A model generated the notes under the pieces. It searched no databases and was not told where the DNA came from. It saw nothing but the letters and a program-made list of their open reading frames with translations. The position numbers and the translations under genes are program-made. This document shows positions 38,167-45,264 of a stretch of DNA of 64,000 nucleotides, piece by piece (positions within the stretch are counted from its first letter, which is position 1; every line of letters starts with the position of its first letter). Source of the stretch: Candidatus Zixiibacteriota bacterium (lineage in GTDB: Bacteria > Zixibacteria > MSB-5A5 > GN15 > FEB-12); the NCBI GenBank assembly GCA_040756055.1, contig JBFLZR010000002.1, positions 460,411-524,410 on the forward strand, written 5' to 3'.

Positions 38167-38670
38167 GTGAACTCGCGAAAGTACATTGGCAGATGTTTGG
38201 AATCTTCGCGAAGATTCATGGTGAGGTATGTTTTACGGTCAGTGTTTTTTCTGATGCTGCTATCATTTGCCTGGCAGGGCTGCGCCACCAATTATCATGC
38301 CCCCTATCGGTTCATTGGATCATCGTCCGAAGACTCTCGAGAAGGGATTGACCCTGAGTTGCATGCGGGCGTGCAGTCACCTGCTGAGGATTCTGTTGAA
38401 GTGTCCGGGCCGGCGGTTCTCTCGTCCGCCGAGCAGACTCCGCTGGCGTCTTATCCTTCGGAGAGTCAAGGCCAGCCGGATGAAGAATTATCCACTCGGT
38501 GTGCTCTCAGCCGTGCGCTCGAGGGAAAGATCGAGGCCGGTTTGGCGCTGGCTATCTTCTTGTTGGTCCCCAATCGCTATTTCAAAGCGGTCGCAATGGC
38601 GGCGGCTCCGTTTATCGAGGATTGGATTCTAAATGGGGTGGACTGGCTCTTTGAGACGCCATCGCCCTGA
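38167..38670 (+). CDS. exported protein of unknown function, possibly a lipoprotein
   Basis: A 167-residue protein. The N-terminal part is basic, then VRYVLRSVFFLMLLSFAWQG with a following Cys, like a lipoprotein signal with an imperfect lipobox. A polar, low-complexity middle (about 45-105, rich in Ser, Glu, Pro) leads to a hydrophobic region IEAGLALAIFLLVPNRYFKA near the end and a short WILNGVDWLFETPSP tail. GTG 38167 and ATG 38218 are both possible starts. I recognise no family. It precedes the metal-efflux cluster by 170 bases. Confidence 0.5.
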   Translation: MNSRKYIGRCLESSRRFMVRYVLRSVFFLMLLSFAWQGCATNYHAPYRFIGSSSEDSREGIDPELHAGVQSPAEDSVEVSGPAVLSSAEQTPLASYPSESQGQPDEELSTRCALSRALEGKIEAGLALAIFLLVPNRYFKAVAMAAAPFIEDWILNGVDWLFETPSP

Positions 38671-38842: not shown

Positions 38843-39244
38843 ATGAGACTACTTGAAGGCAGCATGACAATTCTGGCCGGACTGATACTGGCTCTCAGCC
38901 CGATTCTCCAGATACAGACAGCCTCAGCATCAATTCCGGCAGTGTCCGGCAAGGCTTGCGATACATCGGCCTGCTGTTGTTGCTCGATGGAATCTCCCGG
39001 TGTGGACGATCGGCCAGTTGAAAGCGGTTGCCAGTGCAGCATTTCGGATTCGCAAGAACCGTTTGATGTCGATACTAATGCCAAGGATAGCCGTGTCAGT
39101 CGTGACGTTCAGTATAGATACGAATCCTTGTTGCTTGATCGGTTTGTCCCCCTCTACAGACCGGGTGTTGTTTACTCGGCAGTTACATATGACGCCGGCA
39201 AGTCTCCGCCGGCTTACATCCTTGCCTGTTCATTTCTGATTTAG
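38843..39244 (+). CDS. cysteine-rich exported protein next to the metal efflux genes
   Basis: A 133-residue protein with a signal peptide (MTILAGLILALSPILQIQTA, about residues 8-27). The mature N-terminal part has a dense cysteine cluster: CDTSACCCCS (Cys 39, 44-47) and CQCS (Cys 63, 65), then a charged middle and one more Cys near the end. The position just upstream of the Cu/Ag efflux operon and the cysteine content suggest periplasmic metal binding or sensing. That is inference; I know no family. The ribosome site is weak. Confidence 0.55.
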   Translation: MRLLEGSMTILAGLILALSPILQIQTASASIPAVSGKACDTSACCCCSMESPGVDDRPVESGCQCSISDSQEPFDVDTNAKDSRVSRDVQYRYESLLLDRFVPLYRPGVVYSAVTYDAGKSPPAYILACSFLI

Positions 39245-39337
39245 TCATCAGCATAGGCACCGGCCTGCAACTGCAGAGTTGAAGTGCGTCTTTTCGTTTT
39301 TCACTGATAAGCAACATTAACGAAGGAGTAATTTATC

Positions 39338-40594
39338 ATGACCAGACCGTGGATAGCGGCGCTGGTGCTGCTGATGTTTGTAATAACAGGCGGTTCGGCG
39401 AGGGGCAATCAGGCAGTTCTCGATTCATTGATAGCGGAGGCACTGGCCAATAATCCATCTTTGAAGGCGGCGGCTTTCGAAGCCAATGGATCGAGGTTCA
39501 GCGCGAACGCGGCCGGGACGCTACCGGACCCCGAGTTTTCGATCGGCCTGATGAATCTTCCCCGTACTTCGCTGGCCCTCGATGAAGTGCCGATGTCGGG
39601 TGTTTCGCTCGGGTTTTCACAAATGGTGCCCTGGCCGGGCAAGCTGAAGGCCGCGTCCCGAATTGCCCGGATCGACCAGCAGCGCGACGAGGTATCGATA
39701 GCGGCTGTGCGCAACCGGGTGATTCGCGAAGTGACCGATGCCTACTACGATTATTCGTACTGGAAACTCGGCGAAGGTTTAATTGACGACAATCTTGAAC
39801 TGACAAAAGCGACCGTCGCCGTAACCGAGGAGCGCTACGCCAACGGTGACGCCACGGCTCATGATGTTCTAATGGCGCAGACGACCGCTTCGCGCCTCGA
39901 AATACGTCTTCTGACCGCCCGTCAGATGCAGCAGTCGGCAATACTTGAATTATGCCGCGTTGTTGGGGATTCCTCGGACGCGGAGGATCTTTCTCCCTAT
40001 TTACCGGTGCCGGCAGTCGTTTTCGATGATACATCGACAATATCAAGCAATCCGTACCTTCTGGACGCTGATCTTGCCACAGACCGGGCGAGAGTGAAGC
40101 GCAGTTTGTCGCGCTCGCAGTATTGGCCCGACATTATGCTGGGTGTGGATTATCTCGCGCGCAAGGCAGTGCCAGGAGATATGTCGCCCGGTACGGACTG
40201 GGTTTCGGTGCATGTCGGCCTCAGCGTACCGTTGTGGTTTTTCAGCAAGCAGAAAAACAACGTGCGGGCATCGGAGCAAATGATACTCTCATCGCAACAG
40301 CAGCAAAGGGCGGTGTCCGACAGGCTCCGTGAGCAGGTCGAAGACGGCCGGTTGAATGTGAGGGTTTTGATGGAAAGCTTGCAGAAGTATGACAATGCCA
40401 TTGTGCCTCAGGCAAAGGCCGGCTACGATGCCGCGGAAATTGCCTATGAGGTAGGAAAAATAGATTTCAACGCCCTCTTAGCGGCGCAGGTGCAGCTTCT
40501 CGATGTTCAACTGGAACGTCTGGATCTGGTTCGGCGGATCAACCGGGCCAAAGCGATGCTGAGTGAGTTGTACGGGAACGAAAGTGAAAGGTAA
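39338..40594 (+). CDS. cusC: TolC-family outer-membrane efflux protein (CusC-like)
   Basis: A 418-residue outer-membrane channel of the TolC family. A signal peptide (RPWIAALVLLMFVITGGSAR) follows ATG 39338, which has AGGAG ten bases upstream. The duplicated OEP repeats are visible: NPSLKAAAFEANGSRFSANAA then LPDPEFSIGLMNLP, and the second half RSQYWPDIMLGVDYLARK-like strand with long helices after it. It lacks a lipobox, unlike E. coli CusC. First gene of the metal pump operon; its stop lies five bases before the adaptor start. It provides the outlet for the CusBA pair. Confidence 0.88.
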   Translation: MTRPWIAALVLLMFVITGGSARGNQAVLDSLIAEALANNPSLKAAAFEANGSRFSANAAGTLPDPEFSIGLMNLPRTSLALDEVPMSGVSLGFSQMVPWPGKLKAASRIARIDQQRDEVSIAAVRNRVIREVTDAYYDYSYWKLGEGLIDDNLELTKATVAVTEERYANGDATAHDVLMAQTTASRLEIRLLTARQMQQSAILELCRVVGDSSDAEDLSPYLPVPAVVFDDTSTISSNPYLLDADLATDRARVKRSLSRSQYWPDIMLGVDYLARKAVPGDMSPGTDWVSVHVGLSVPLWFFSKQKNNVRASEQMILSSQQQQRAVSDRLREQVEDGRLNVRVLMESLQKYDNAIVPQAKAGYDAAEIAYEVGKIDFNALLAAQVQLLDVQLERLDLVRRINRAKAMLSELYGNESER

Positions 40595-40598
40595 TACC

Positions 40599-42146
40599 AT
40601 GAAAACGATAATATTAGCAGTAGCGTGCTTGGTAATTGGTTTCGCCGCGGCATATTTCTGGCGAGAAGGAAGTCGTCCGGTTGAGGCGGCGGTCAACGAT
40701 AGTGAATCAGTGCTTTACACTTGCGGGATGCACCCGGAGGTGATATCGACCGAGCCGGGTACGTGCCCTATCTGCGGCATGGATCTGGTGGTGAAGAAGG
40801 GTGATGCCAAGGCAAGTGGGTTGGTACAAATCGACCCCACGACCCGGCAAAACATGGGTCTAGTTACGACGGAAGCGTCTCTCCAATCGCTGTCGAAGAG
40901 AGTGAGGGCGTTCGGGAAAGTGATGATCGCTGACCCGAACCATTATGATGTCAACCTGAAGGTCGGTGGATGGGTGGAGAAGCTTTTCGTCAATGAGACC
41001 GGTGAACGGGTCTTCAAAGGTCAACCGCTTCTTGAGATTTATTCTCCGCAGCTGGTGACCGCCCAGCGTGAGTACCTGACAGCCCTGGCGAGTTCAAAGT
41101 CGGCTGATAATCTGAAGTCGCTTCTCGAACTATCGGAAAGCCGTCTGAAAAACTGGGATATCACCGAAGACCAGCTTAACGACCTCAGGGAAGCCGGCAA
41201 GGTGAGTCGCACGATGACAATCCGGGCGCCATCGGACGGCTTCGTTATCAAAAAGTTCGTTAACGAAGGTATGGAGGTTGCGCCCGGCGCGACCTTGTAC
41301 GAAATAGCCGATCTATCCACTGTCTGGGTCTCGGCTTATGTCTACGAGCAGGATCTCCCCTATGTGGCTTTGAAGCAGGATGCTGAAGTCACTACTCCGG
41401 GACTTCCAGGGCGGATCTTCGATTCGCGGGTTATCTATGTCTCCCCCTCCCTCAACCCCAAAGGGCAGGTACAGATACGGCTGGAAATGGCCAATCCGCA
41501 CTTTGAGTTGAGACCCGAGATGTACGCCGAAGTGGAGCTGCAGCATCGGTCACGGCATGCCGCTCTGGTTGTACCGCGTTCGGCAGTCATCAATTCAGGG
41601 AAACGTCAGGTTGTTTATGTAGCCTCGACGGATGACACGTTCGAGCCACGGACGGTTACTACCGGTGCCGTTGATGAGAACGACATGATTGAGATCGTCA
41701 GCGGCATAGGGGCCGGGGAAAAAGTGGTAACATCGGGGCAGTTCCTTCTGGACTCCGAATCGCGCCTCAGTGAAGCTGTCGGGCAGATGGGCGGTCACCA
41801 GCACGGTTCTCAGGCGACTGTCGGGGACAATACAGTTGCGATGACATCGGATGACCAGAGCACGATGGACCAATCTATGGAAGGCCATGATCACGCTCAG
41901 CAGACATCGGATCCACACAATATCCATACCTGCCCCATGCCGCAGGATTACGATGTTCTCCATTATGGTCCGGGCAAGTGTCCGAAGTGCGGCATGGCGC
42001 TGGTTCCGGTCAGTGAAACGGATATCGGTGATGTTTGGGTTTGCCCGATGCCCCAGGACAGCGTGGCTCAGAGGGAGCCGGGAGTCTGTCCGGTCTGTGG
42101 CATGAAGCTGATCAAGTATGAACCGGGAGCAAGCCATGATCACTAA
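40599..42146 (+). CDS. cusB: heavy-metal RND adaptor CusB-like with three metal-binding domains
   Basis: A 515-residue periplasmic adaptor anchored by one N-terminal helix (TIILAVACLVIGFAAAYFW). ATG 40599 follows AAAGG. Residues about 40-65 form a heavy-metal-binding domain (YTCGMHPEVISTEPGTCPIC then GMDL). The adaptor core follows, with lipoyl and barrel parts (TIRAPSDGFVIKKFVNEGM). After a His/Met-rich linker (GHQHGSQ; MDQSMEGHDHAQQ) come two more domains of the same type: HTCPMPQDYDVLHYGPGKCP then KCGMALVPV, and WVCPMPQDSVAQREPGVCP then VCGMKLIKY. Tail GASHDH. Three copies, two of them C-terminal, is unusual. It overlaps cusA by 11 bases. Confidence 0.9.
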   Translation: MKTIILAVACLVIGFAAAYFWREGSRPVEAAVNDSESVLYTCGMHPEVISTEPGTCPICGMDLVVKKGDAKASGLVQIDPTTRQNMGLVTTEASLQSLSKRVRAFGKVMIADPNHYDVNLKVGGWVEKLFVNETGERVFKGQPLLEIYSPQLVTAQREYLTALASSKSADNLKSLLELSESRLKNWDITEDQLNDLREAGKVSRTMTIRAPSDGFVIKKFVNEGMEVAPGATLYEIADLSTVWVSAYVYEQDLPYVALKQDAEVTTPGLPGRIFDSRVIYVSPSLNPKGQVQIRLEMANPHFELRPEMYAEVELQHRSRHAALVVPRSAVINSGKRQVVYVASTDDTFEPRTVTTGAVDENDMIEIVSGIGAGEKVVTSGQFLLDSESRLSEAVGQMGGHQHGSQATVGDNTVAMTSDDQSTMDQSMEGHDHAQQTSDPHNIHTCPMPQDYDVLHYGPGKCPKCGMALVPVSETDIGDVWVCPMPQDSVAQREPGVCPVCGMKLIKYEPGASHDH

Positions 42147-45100
42147 GCTGATAGAGTCATCGATTCAGCATCGGTGGCTGGTGCTGGCAGTGGCGGTCGC
42201 CATACTTGCTCTCGGGGCCTGGGCGGCCAATGTGATTACGGTAGATGCCATCCCCGACCTTTCGGATACGCAGGTGATTATTCAGACGGAGTATTCCGGT
42301 CAGCCGCCGCGCGTTGTCGAAGACCAGGTGACCTATCCTTTGTCGACGGCGATGCTATCGGTGCCGGGGGCTACATTCGTACGCGGTTTTTCGCATTTCG
42401 GCATGTCGTACGTTTATGTGATTTTCGAGGATGGTACGGACATCTACTGGGCGCGCAGCCGCGTGCTGGAATATCTCTCGCAGATGGCAGGGCGACTTCC
42501 GGCCGGTGTATTGCCGCAACTCGGTCCGGATGCAACCGGGATAGGCTGGGTGTATCAGTACGCGCTGGTGGACACAACTGACACCCATGATTTGTCGCAG
42601 CTTCGCTCAATTCAGGACTGGTACCTTAAGTACGAGTTGAGTTCGCTCGATGGAGTCGCCGAGGTTGCTTCAGTCGGAGGGTTTGTCAGGCAGTACCAGG
42701 TGGAAGTGGACCCAGCCAAGCTGGAGCACTATGGCATCGCGCTGGGTCACGTGATAAACGCCGTGAAGCGCTCGACAGGCGCTGTCGGAGGTCGGCTGCT
42801 GGAGCTTGGAGAGACCGAGTTTGTTGTCCGTTCCCAGGCCTATATCGGTGACCTCGATGATTTGAGGCAAACGCCGGTTCATATTCCGCCGGACGGTCCG
42901 CCGGTCTTTCTTTCGTCGGTGGCCCAGGTACACATGGGTCCGGAAATCCGACGGGGGGTGGCGGAACTCGATGGTAAGGGCGAGACAGTGGGCGGCATTG
43001 TCGTGATTCGTTACGGCGAGAACGCCCGCGATGTCATTAACCGGGTCAAGGAGCGACTCGAAGACCTCAAGGGTGGGCTGCCGCCGGGGGTTGAAGTCGT
43101 GCCGGTATATGACAGGTCAGCCCTGATCGACAGGGCTACCGGCAATCTCACCGATACGCTGATCAAAGAGATTCTAATAGTGGTGCTGGTGACGCTTCTG
43201 TTTCTGCTCCACGTGCGCTCGACACTAATCGCTGTCGTTACTTTGCCCGCCGGCGTCGGACTGTCTCTTCTGCTGATGCATTGGCTCGGCATCAACGCCA
43301 ACATCATGTCGCTGGGCGGCATAGCGATCGCTATTGGCGTGATGGTGGATGCATCGCTGGTAACGGTGGAAAACGCCCACAAACATCTTGAGCGCTTCGG
43401 CGAGAGCAAACCTCGCGACAAAATTATACTGGATGCGGTGAAAGAGGTCGGCCCGGCGCTATTTTTTTCACTTCTTATTATCACGGTATCCTTTCTGCCC
43501 ATTCTGGCGCTGGAAGGTCAATCGGGAAGGTTGTTCAAACCGCTGGCGTACACGAAAACATTCGCCATGGCGGCATCGGCCCTTATATCGATTACGATAA
43601 TCCCCGCGCTGGTGGCTATATTTCTCAAAGGGAGGATACAGTCCGAGTCGCGTAATAGACTGTCACAGTTCTTTATAAGAATCTACCGGCCGGTCATCAA
43701 CTTCGCGCTCAGAAGGCGATGGTGGGTAATTGGTGTATCGGTCGTGATCCTCGTGGCCACGATATTTCCGATGATGAGGCTCGGATCGGAGTTTATGCCT
43801 GCCCTTTACGAGGGAGACATGTTGTATATGCCCACCACGCTTCCGGGAATATCCATAACCAAGGCGCGGGAACTTCTGCAGCAGACCGACCGCATAATCG
43901 CATCGTTTCCCGAGGTGGAGCGGGTGTTCGGCAAGGTCGGACGGGCAGAGACCGCAACTGATCCGGCGCCGCTTACGATGCTGGAGACAACAATCACGCT
44001 CAGGCCCCTCGATGAATGGCGGCCCGGGATGACGCCGCAGAAGTTGATTGATTCTCTCGATGCGGCTGTTCAGTTCCCCGGCTTGACCAATGCCTGGACG
44101 ATGCCGATCCGCGCCCGCATCGACATGCTGGCGACAGGCATCAAGACTCCCATCGGAATCAAGGTTATGGGGCCGAATCTGGATAGTCTCAACGCCATCG
44201 CCCAACGTATTGAGGCGGTGGTTAAGCCGCTTGCAGGAACACGTTCGGTTTACGCGGAAAGAATCACCGGCGGCAATTATCTCGATATCGATATTGATCG
44301 CTTCAAGACGGCGGCTTACGGCATTAGTATCGAGGATGTCAATCAGACTATCGCGTCGGCGGTCGGTGGCATGAATGTCGCCTATAATATCGAAGGGCGT
44401 GAACGTTACCCTATCAACGTACGGTACCTTCGATCGCTGCGAGACGATCCCGAAGCGATTTCAAGAGTGCTCATCGGAACAAAGGACGGCCGGAATGTGC
44501 CGCTCGGGCAGATCGCACAGCTCAGGTTCTCCAAGGGTGCGGTCATGATCAAGTCGGAAAACGCCCGACCAACCAACTGGATTTTCGTTGATCTCGAGGG
44601 TACCGATGTCGGCTCGTATGTAGAGATGGCACGTACCGAGGTGGCGCAGAAAGTGAGTCTTCCCCAGGGCTACTCGCTGGTCTGGTCAGGACAGTACGAG
44701 AACATTCAGCAGGTTGCCGCAAGACTGAAGGTCATCGTGCCGATGGTACTCTTCGTGATTCTCCTTCTGCTGTACTTGCACTTCAAGAACTTCGCCGACA
44801 CGCTCATTGTCATGCTGTCACTTCCTTTCGCGCTGGTGGGCGGAATCTGGCTGATCTATCTATACGGCTACAATACATCGATCGCCGTCTGGGCTGGTTT
44901 TATCGCGCTTGCGGGACTGGCGGCTGAGACGGGTATTGTGATGCTGGTATATCTGGAAGAAGCGGTCGCGCGTTACCGATCCGAAGGACGATTGAACAGC
45001 TATGTGGATTTGAAGAAGGCGACGATTGAGGGCGCGGTCGAAAGAGTACGGCCCAAGTTAATGACAGTTGGTACGACGCTTCTGGCGCTGATTCCCATCA

Positions 45101-45264
45101 TGGTCGGACACGGTACCGGTTCGGAAGTAATGCAGCGGATAGCGGCCCCGATGGTGGGCGGATTGATTTCATCGACGGTCTTAACGTTAATCGTGGTCCC
45201 GATTCTGTTTCTGATCGTGAACCGGGTGAAGCTTAATTTTGCGGAGGAATCGCGAGAGAGTTAG
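42136..45264 (+). CDS. cusA: heavy-metal (Cu/Ag type) RND efflux permease
   Basis: A 1042-residue HME-RND pump; ATG 42136 lies inside the end of cusB, after GGGAG. Helix 4 has AIAIGVMVDASLVTVENAHK, the HME signature with the essential Asp (first) and Glu (in VEN). Methionines placed as in CusA (for example the Met in EGDMLYMPTTLPGIS and in RIDMLATGIKTPIGIKVMG) support transport of Cu(I)/Ag(I). Porter and helix-bundle order is normal. It is the last gene of the operon, and its stop codon overlaps the stop of the convergent propeller gene by four bases. Confidence 0.92.
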   Translation: MITKLIESSIQHRWLVLAVAVAILALGAWAANVITVDAIPDLSDTQVIIQTEYSGQPPRVVEDQVTYPLSTAMLSVPGATFVRGFSHFGMSYVYVIFEDGTDIYWARSRVLEYLSQMAGRLPAGVLPQLGPDATGIGWVYQYALVDTTDTHDLSQLRSIQDWYLKYELSSLDGVAEVASVGGFVRQYQVEVDPAKLEHYGIALGHVINAVKRSTGAVGGRLLELGETEFVVRSQAYIGDLDDLRQTPVHIPPDGPPVFLSSVAQVHMGPEIRRGVAELDGKGETVGGIVVIRYGENARDVINRVKERLEDLKGGLPPGVEVVPVYDRSALIDRATGNLTDTLIKEILIVVLVTLLFLLHVRSTLIAVVTLPAGVGLSLLLMHWLGINANIMSLGGIAIAIGVMVDASLVTVENAHKHLERFGESKPRDKIILDAVKEVGPALFFSLLIITVSFLPILALEGQSGRLFKPLAYTKTFAMAASALISITIIPALVAIFLKGRIQSESRNRLSQFFIRIYRPVINFALRRRWWVIGVSVVILVATIFPMMRLGSEFMPALYEGDMLYMPTTLPGISITKARELLQQTDRIIASFPEVERVFGKVGRAETATDPAPLTMLETTITLRPLDEWRPGMTPQKLIDSLDAAVQFPGLTNAWTMPIRARIDMLATGIKTPIGIKVMGPNLDSLNAIAQRIEAVVKPLAGTRSVYAERITGGNYLDIDIDRFKTAAYGISIEDVNQTIASAVGGMNVAYNIEGRERYPINVRYLRSLRDDPEAISRVLIGTKDGRNVPLGQIAQLRFSKGAVMIKSENARPTNWIFVDLEGTDVGSYVEMARTEVAQKVSLPQGYSLVWSGQYENIQQVAARLKVIVPMVLFVILLLLYLHFKNFADTLIVMLSLPFALVGGIWLIYLYGYNTSIAVWAGFIALAGLAAETGIVMLVYLEEAVARYRSEGRLNSYVDLKKATIEGAVERVRPKLMTVGTTLLALIPIMVGHGTGSEVMQRIAAPMVGGLISSTVLTLIVVPILFLIVNRVKLNFAEESRES

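Follow-up and report, generated by a model that had tools for sequence, protein, structure and literature searches.

A putative copper-sensing leader peptide encoded upstream of the cusCBA efflux operon in Candidatus Zixiibacteriota

Background

CutF of Rhodobacter capsulatus is described as an exported protein that senses copper while still nascent and opens an RNA stem over cutO; according to the same source, the most common neighbour of CutF-like proteins is an outer membrane efflux protein (OEP), often annotated as CusC (PMC9973294). CruR of Bordetella pertussis is reported to sense copper through a CXXC motif and to pause at RAPP, with the spacing of the motifs being important (PMC9426467), and a 2025 study demonstrated this arrest in vitro (PMC12992588). 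CzcI, encoded before czcCBA in Cupriavidus, is a small protein that has been suggested to be a metal-sensing regulator, as summarized in PMC9973294.

Here we analyse a leader ORF that precedes cusC in a 64,000-nucleotide stretch of a Candidatus Zixiibacteriota contig (hereafter the window). An earlier note on this DNA had proposed that the product is a periplasmic metal scavenger, sensor or chaperone feeding the Cu/Ag pump. Comparative sequence analysis suggests that the leader probably serves as a built-in sensor of copper rather than as a helper of the pump, and that its own synthesis sets the amount of pump that is made.

Results and discussion

The leader ORF and its operon

The leader, the pump genes and the RNA elements between them are arranged on one strand of the window as follows.

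38843..39244, + strand: leader ORF (uORF), 133 amino acids, ATG start, TAG stop
38843..38929, + strand: Sec signal peptide, residues 1-29, cleavage at ASA/S assigned by eye
38957..38983, + strand: first cysteine cluster C39-x4-CCCC, residues 39-47; C45 is invariant in the family
39029..39037, + strand: C63-x-C65, the CxC motif that is invariant in the family alignment
39038..39205, + strand: linker of 56 residues, conserved in the family in length but not in sequence
39206..39244, + strand: C-terminal arrest-like motif PPAYILACSFLI with the stop codon, delineated by family conservation
39246..39264, + strand: anti-start-region element directly 3' of the stop codon, with 39246-39253 and 39257-39264 as the pairing bases
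39323..39328, + strand: Shine-Dalgarno sequence AAGGAG of cusC, read from the sequence
39338..40594, + strand: cusC, outer membrane efflux protein (OEP; PF02321)
39361..39376, + strand: pairing partner of the anti-start element in early cusC codons, from duplex prediction and folding
40599..42146, + strand: cusB, HlyD_D23 adaptor with three HMBD stretches (Pfam profiles)
42118..45264, + strand: cusA, CusA/CzcA family RND pump, above the TIGR00914 cut-off

The signal peptide reported previously is borne out, as judged by eye, by a hydrophobic stretch at the N-terminus and an AxA-like site around residue 29; such a stretch is present in all 23 members of the leader family that were examined. The C-x4-CCCC and C-x-C clusters (C39, C44-47, C63/C65) are likewise confirmed, as is the placement of the leader stop codon 93 nt before the cusC ATG (39338) on the same strand. 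A further cysteine (C129, in addition to positions 39, 44-47, 63 and 65) and the conserved C-terminal end of the protein, SPPAYILACSFLI, had been absent from the earlier description. Another in-frame ATG is located 7 codons downstream of the start at 38843. On the 5' side of the leader, an ORF on the same strand (38167-38670) encodes a lipoprotein-like product of 167 residues without a Pfam match.

Within the window, the pump is by similarity of the Cu/Ag type: CusA scores 1173 bits against Escherichia coli CusA compared to 565 bits against ZneA, and the alignment of the window pump retains methionines that we take to correspond to M573, M623 and M672 of E. coli CusA, with the numbering and roles being assumed.

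The statement that no family is known for the leader holds for Pfam and NCBIfam: the window protein matches neither, and 26 aligned relatives yield only weak, chance-like matches, each in a single member. It does not hold at the level of function, where a published class of CutF-like proteins and CruR exists. CusF is a small periplasmic copper protein of cus operons, and its profile (PF11604) has no match in the leader or its family. The AlphaFold model of the leader has a mean pLDDT of 50.3, with the signal helix alone predicted confidently from a shallow alignment of 7 rows; the model was rejected as a structure-search query on account of its poor quality.

The leader family is tied to cusC

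A family profile was built from three members of the genus and searched in 132 genomes of the phylum. At E<=3e-5, it recovered 20 matches in 20 genomes, each spanning the whole length or most of it, and three of these are the query rows. In 19 of the 20 (again including the query rows), cusC lies directly 3' on the same strand; the exception is an orphan leader (L028), where the next gene is on the opposite strand. The 11 weakest profile matches (E 0.0015 to 0.075) were excluded; of the 10 that were viewed (L039-L048), none is located beside CusC. A search of named genomes with the single leader protein retrieved no relative because the sequence between the motifs diverges fast. A scan with a tail pattern returned 6 loci, five of them titled Zixibacteria and one 'bacterium'; given that this pattern fits only 6 of the 30 members of the family itself, the scan is weak evidence for the absence of the tail elsewhere. 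The family probably belongs to the phylum of the window, Candidatus Zixiibacteriota.

The cusC-less leader of L028 (1438-1890, the same place as 4754-5167 of L119) is intact and, as in L053, retains TTATCTACTCTTAGA, the half of the RNA stem that adjoins the stop. This leader is possibly a remnant of a pump operon that was lost.

A search in the opposite direction, with CusC as the starting point, gave 116 CusC-like places (summed per-genome counts), of which 30 strong (E<=1.3e-60), 3 partial and 39 of the other 83 were examined. One strong CusC gene (L069) lies at a contig end, and 29 have upstream DNA; a cysteine-rich exported ORF is found directly upstream of 27 of these, with the full tail in 22, a tail two residues short in L059 and another tail in L073-L076. 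The link to metal efflux that the earlier note had drawn from one locus is upheld from both sides, that is, by the position of the leaders before cusC and by the presence of leaders before strong CusC genes. Two strong CusC genes (L077, L078) lack a leader upstream; that of L078 follows a frame (1-1071) that by eye resembles a metal P-type ATPase and so may not be the first gene of its operon. Each of the partial CusC genes (L029, L035, L117) is likewise preceded by a leader; in two of these cases, it was the leader that first led to the locus, and L117 may represent the opposite end of the L069 gene, which is from the same genome.

Among the 39 weaker OEP loci that were examined out of the 83 such places, none has the leader tail; L080, L110 and L113 of this set have little upstream DNA. 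Other exported cysteine-rich ORFs with a different layout, some of them with PP near the end, precede more divergent outer-membrane efflux genes of the phylum at L081, L085, L090 and L115. Cysteine-rich frames at L097 and L109 were set aside, their start not being hydrophobic.

The distance between the leader stop and cusC is 68-93 nt in 27 of 30 loci and 21, 146 and 149 nt in the remainder.

Conservation of cysteines, tail and spacing

Three cysteines (C45, C63 and C65) and P123 are invariant in all 27 aligned members (26 of class A and L028); the earlier note had named in advance non-conserved cysteines, or a lack of association with metal efflux genes elsewhere, as outcomes that would count against it. 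Apart from C45, the first cysteine cluster is variable across the family. The best-conserved stretch is formed by the last 12 residues, PP-L-Y-[ILV]-x-N-x-S-F-L-I-stop. In a comparison of 23 of the 30 loci (omitting L059, the near-copies L062 and L063 and four class B members), the median identity is 58% for the tail and 8.9% for the linker, compared to 5.5% for shuffled linkers, and yet the linker length stays within 55-58 residues in all 23. The tail codons swap between synonyms, which points to selection acting on the peptide rather than on the RNA in this region; the stop codons vary as well (TGA 13, TAA 13, TAG 4).

In all 26 class A members, 67-70 residues separate the last CxC from the C-terminus, with 68 in the window. 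The class B leaders (L073-L076), the tails of which close with PLLC or PLIC where class A has SFLI, have closely similar distances of 69, 69, 69 and 72 residues. Linkers of constant length and diverged sequence look like a ruler. PP is present in the last 15 residues of 22 of the 30 family members and missing from 8. The leader tail matches no known arrest motif.

RNA pairing between the leader stop and the cusC start region

At most loci, the sequence that directly follows the leader stop codon can base-pair with the start region of cusC; in L050, for instance, UCUCCUUCG is complementary to CGAAGGAGA. The first duplex test, in which the stop codon plus 22 bases was paired with cusC positions -22..+16, covered 26 of the 30 loci, leaving out three near-copies (L062, L063, L075) and L074 with its 21-nt gap. 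Cognate duplexes have a mean of -14.4 kcal/mol compared to -9.1 (sd 0.53) for permuted partners, a difference reached in 0 of 2000 permutations (n=26). The window itself failed in this test, with a duplex of -7.6 kcal/mol, equal or better values for 23 of 25 non-cognate 3' partners, and 0.0 expected pairs with the -22..+16 target. The cusC target was widened to -25..+45 after this failure, that is, by a post hoc choice; with the wider target, the cognate mean is -16.3 compared to -10.6 (sd 0.56) for permuted partners (0 of 5000), and the window duplex becomes the strongest of the 26 (-27.5), surpassing those with all 25 other partners. The stem partner in the window is situated in the coding sequence and not on the Shine-Dalgarno sequence; both the MFE and the centroid structures contain the stem (z -1.98, with 10 of 200 shuffled sequences folding at least as stably). 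Control segments give weaker signals (-40..-16, marginal at 51/2000; -28..-4, 381; +25..+47, 208).

When the 22 post-stop bases are shuffled, the expected pairing with the first target drops on average from 10.2 to 4.3 base pairs, with 12 of the 26 loci at or below 3/60 shuffles individually, and that with the wider one drops from 11.5 to 6.0 base pairs, with 9 of the 26 at or below 2/50. In the wider-target ensemble, pairing in the window is moderately above that of the shuffles, 4 of 50 of which are as high. Pairing is weak in L059 and L054, and L051, L057 and L066 pair little in the ensemble. At L051 and L066, the post-stop GCGATACG can pair either with a nearby copy, forming a hairpin, or with the region of the cusC start codon, an alternative that by eye looks like a two-state switch.

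When a ribosome halted at the leader stop codon is modelled in a simple way, the start region opens by a mean of only +0.05 across 29 loci, compared to +0.02 for shuffled sequences; for a wider region, 14 of 26 loci open and 1 closes, with values for the window of 0.53 free and 0.49 parked. The Shine-Dalgarno window opens little on average, in part because many of the stems target the start codon or early codons. When folded without the later cusC codons, the gap in the window has no special stability (z 0.30; z -0.96), and no terminator-like site was found in it.

Proposed mechanism and alternatives

The conserved tail, the fixed distance from CxC to the end and the cognate RNA pairing together argue for a nascent-chain regulator comparable to CutF and CruR, and we consider it probable that the leader is a cis-acting copper (or silver) sensor that acts during its own synthesis. 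The signal peptide would take the nascent chain through SecYEG, presumably in a cotranslational manner. With the ribosome at the final codons, CxC would be 58 residues (counted from PP) to 68 residues (counted from the end) away from the peptidyl-transferase centre. This is about the length that crosses the ribosome tunnel plus SecYEG, such that CxC should lie roughly where the chain emerges in the periplasm, which suggests sensing on the periplasmic side. Metal bound at CxC would then hold the chain back and the ribosome would pause on the PP-x-Y...F-L-I-stop tail, covering the post-stop mRNA that otherwise pairs with the cusC start region; once this region is freed, the pump would be made. 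The direction of control, with metal switching cusCBA on, is that expected under this scheme.

Of the three roles suggested in the earlier note, that of a sensor fits best. A function as scavenger or chaperone for the pump is a poor fit, given the conservation of the last 12 residues, the fixed Cys-to-end distance, the lack of a confidently predicted fold and the pairing of the post-stop mRNA with the cusC start region. CusF-type chaperones occur in cus operons, and the leader is exported, rich in cysteines and adjoins cusC, so a mature cysteine-rich protein that hands Cu/Ag to CusB or CusC as the functional product deserves consideration; nevertheless, conservation peaks toward the stop codon with the linker near the shuffled level, neither CusF nor any other metal-binding family matches, AlphaFold is confident on the signal helix alone (a weak point, given its 7-row alignment), and the cognate RNA pairing is left unexplained, which makes this reading rather improbable. 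A spurious or untranslated ORF is hardly credible: a crude scan did find many family start codons without an upstream Shine-Dalgarno sequence, but the protein-level conservation combined with synonymous change speaks against this.

Two further readings retain a sensing leader and differ in how it acts or in what it senses. The leader could be of the CruR kind, with metal releasing an arrest and with Rho-dependent or other attenuation of transcription, such that metal possibly lowers expression; CruR of B. pertussis works in this manner (PMC9426467), and the window has an alternative hairpin into which the 3' end of the uORF extends. The family gaps are, however, short (68-93 nt at 27 of 30 loci) compared to 162 nt in cruR-bfrG, the window gap contains no terminator-like site, and efflux is expected to rise with metal; furthermore, pairing of the stop-adjacent strand with the start region at most loci suggests control at the level of translation. 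On balance, we regard the CruR kind as unlikely. The signal peptide, the cysteines and the tail would all be compatible with a leader that senses the state of secretion or redox conditions, with the cysteines serving as disulfide or oxidation sensors rather than as copper ligands, and arrest peptides encoded before Sec and YidC genes are widespread (PMC10987492); with a CusC-type efflux gene and not a Sec gene downstream of 19 of the 20 leaders, we consider this very unlikely, the Cu/Ag type of the pump having been assessed for the window.

A bolder form of the preferred reading, a metal-sensing nascent chain, is that Zixibacteria have their own class of metal-sensing arrest peptides, combining a new stall sequence that ends at the stop codon, a ruler of 67-70 residues and a co-evolving anti-start strand; this is a tentative proposal, to which we assign somewhat less than an even chance. 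The ruler would place CxC just outside SecYEG, so that the transcript would read periplasmic copper directly, and the stalled ribosome would mask the anti-start strand, switching cusCBA on. The preferred reading offers a case, in a phylum that has received little study, of a copper-efflux pump governed by a nascent chain. As the Cys-to-end distance is fixed, the question of how metal binding outside the membrane reaches the ribosome becomes testable through a single length. The tail adds a candidate for an arrest sequence that is not of the RAPP type, and the combination of fixed distance, tail and anti-start strand provides a signature for finding more such sensors.

Comparison with known systems

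The leader shares with CutF-like proteins a small exported ORF with a Cys motif and PP near the end, and a metal gene downstream on the same strand across a short gap (PMC9973294); a stem over the start of that gene, as predicted for CutF-like proteins, may be a further common trait. Read against the rules given in that paper, the window leader has 133 residues (rule, <150), a Sec-type signal (hydrophobic segment and AxA, by eye), PP within the last 15 residues (P122-P123 of 133) and a same-strand metal gene at a gap below 1000 nt (cusC at 93 nt); the stem-loop is strongly predicted family-wide and appears in the window only with the extended, post hoc target. The leader differs from the CutF-like proteins in the 10 residues that follow PP and end in ...SFLI-stop, in the location of CxC 67-70 residues from the end, and in a stem formed by the stop-adjacent strand that often reaches the start codon or early codons. 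The published filter would miss the eight of the 30 leaders in which the last 15 residues contain no PP. The separation from the 29 published CutF-like clusters is by description and rules (PMC9973294), the main text of which does not name Zixibacteria.

Like CruR, the leader is the first gene of a copper operon and has an export signal and a Cys motif whose spacing to a proline motif near the C-terminus is conserved (PMC9426467, PMC12992588). Unlike CruR, where CXXC is 45 residues from RAPP, it has CxC with 56 residues to PP and no RAPP (PMC9426467). Membership in the DUF2946/CruR family was rejected: PF11162 matches none of the 27 members at E<=1 and has no match in the genome of the window. 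Weak DUF2946 matches occur in two genomes of the phylum (L125, L126), one of them reaching the family cut-off.

Of 40 plasmid matches listed, 10 were examined; none of these loci has the leader tail, and 3 have a Cys-containing uORF with a signal-like start and an RPP-motif ending. These Vibrio/Shewanella plasmid leaders (L127 882-1271, L130 815-1228, L133 845-1234), unannotated or 'hypothetical', resemble the leader in their signal-like N-terminus, Cys cluster and position before a CusC-like gene. They differ in ending with RPPSV, RPPSA and RPPIFFVK and in spacing, with 39-40 residues from the last Cys to PP and 44-46 to the end.

CzcI, compared here by description, is similarly a small protein encoded before an RND metal efflux operon, and is said, in contrast to the leader, to lack a C-terminal proline motif (PMC9973294). 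Among the matches listed in literature searches on CutF, CruR/DUF2946, copper uORFs or arrest peptides, and Zixibacteria, no title or abstract beginning describes the leader family. Judged by its sequence features, the family is a new form of putative copper-sensing uORF, with a tail and a Cys-to-end distance of its own.
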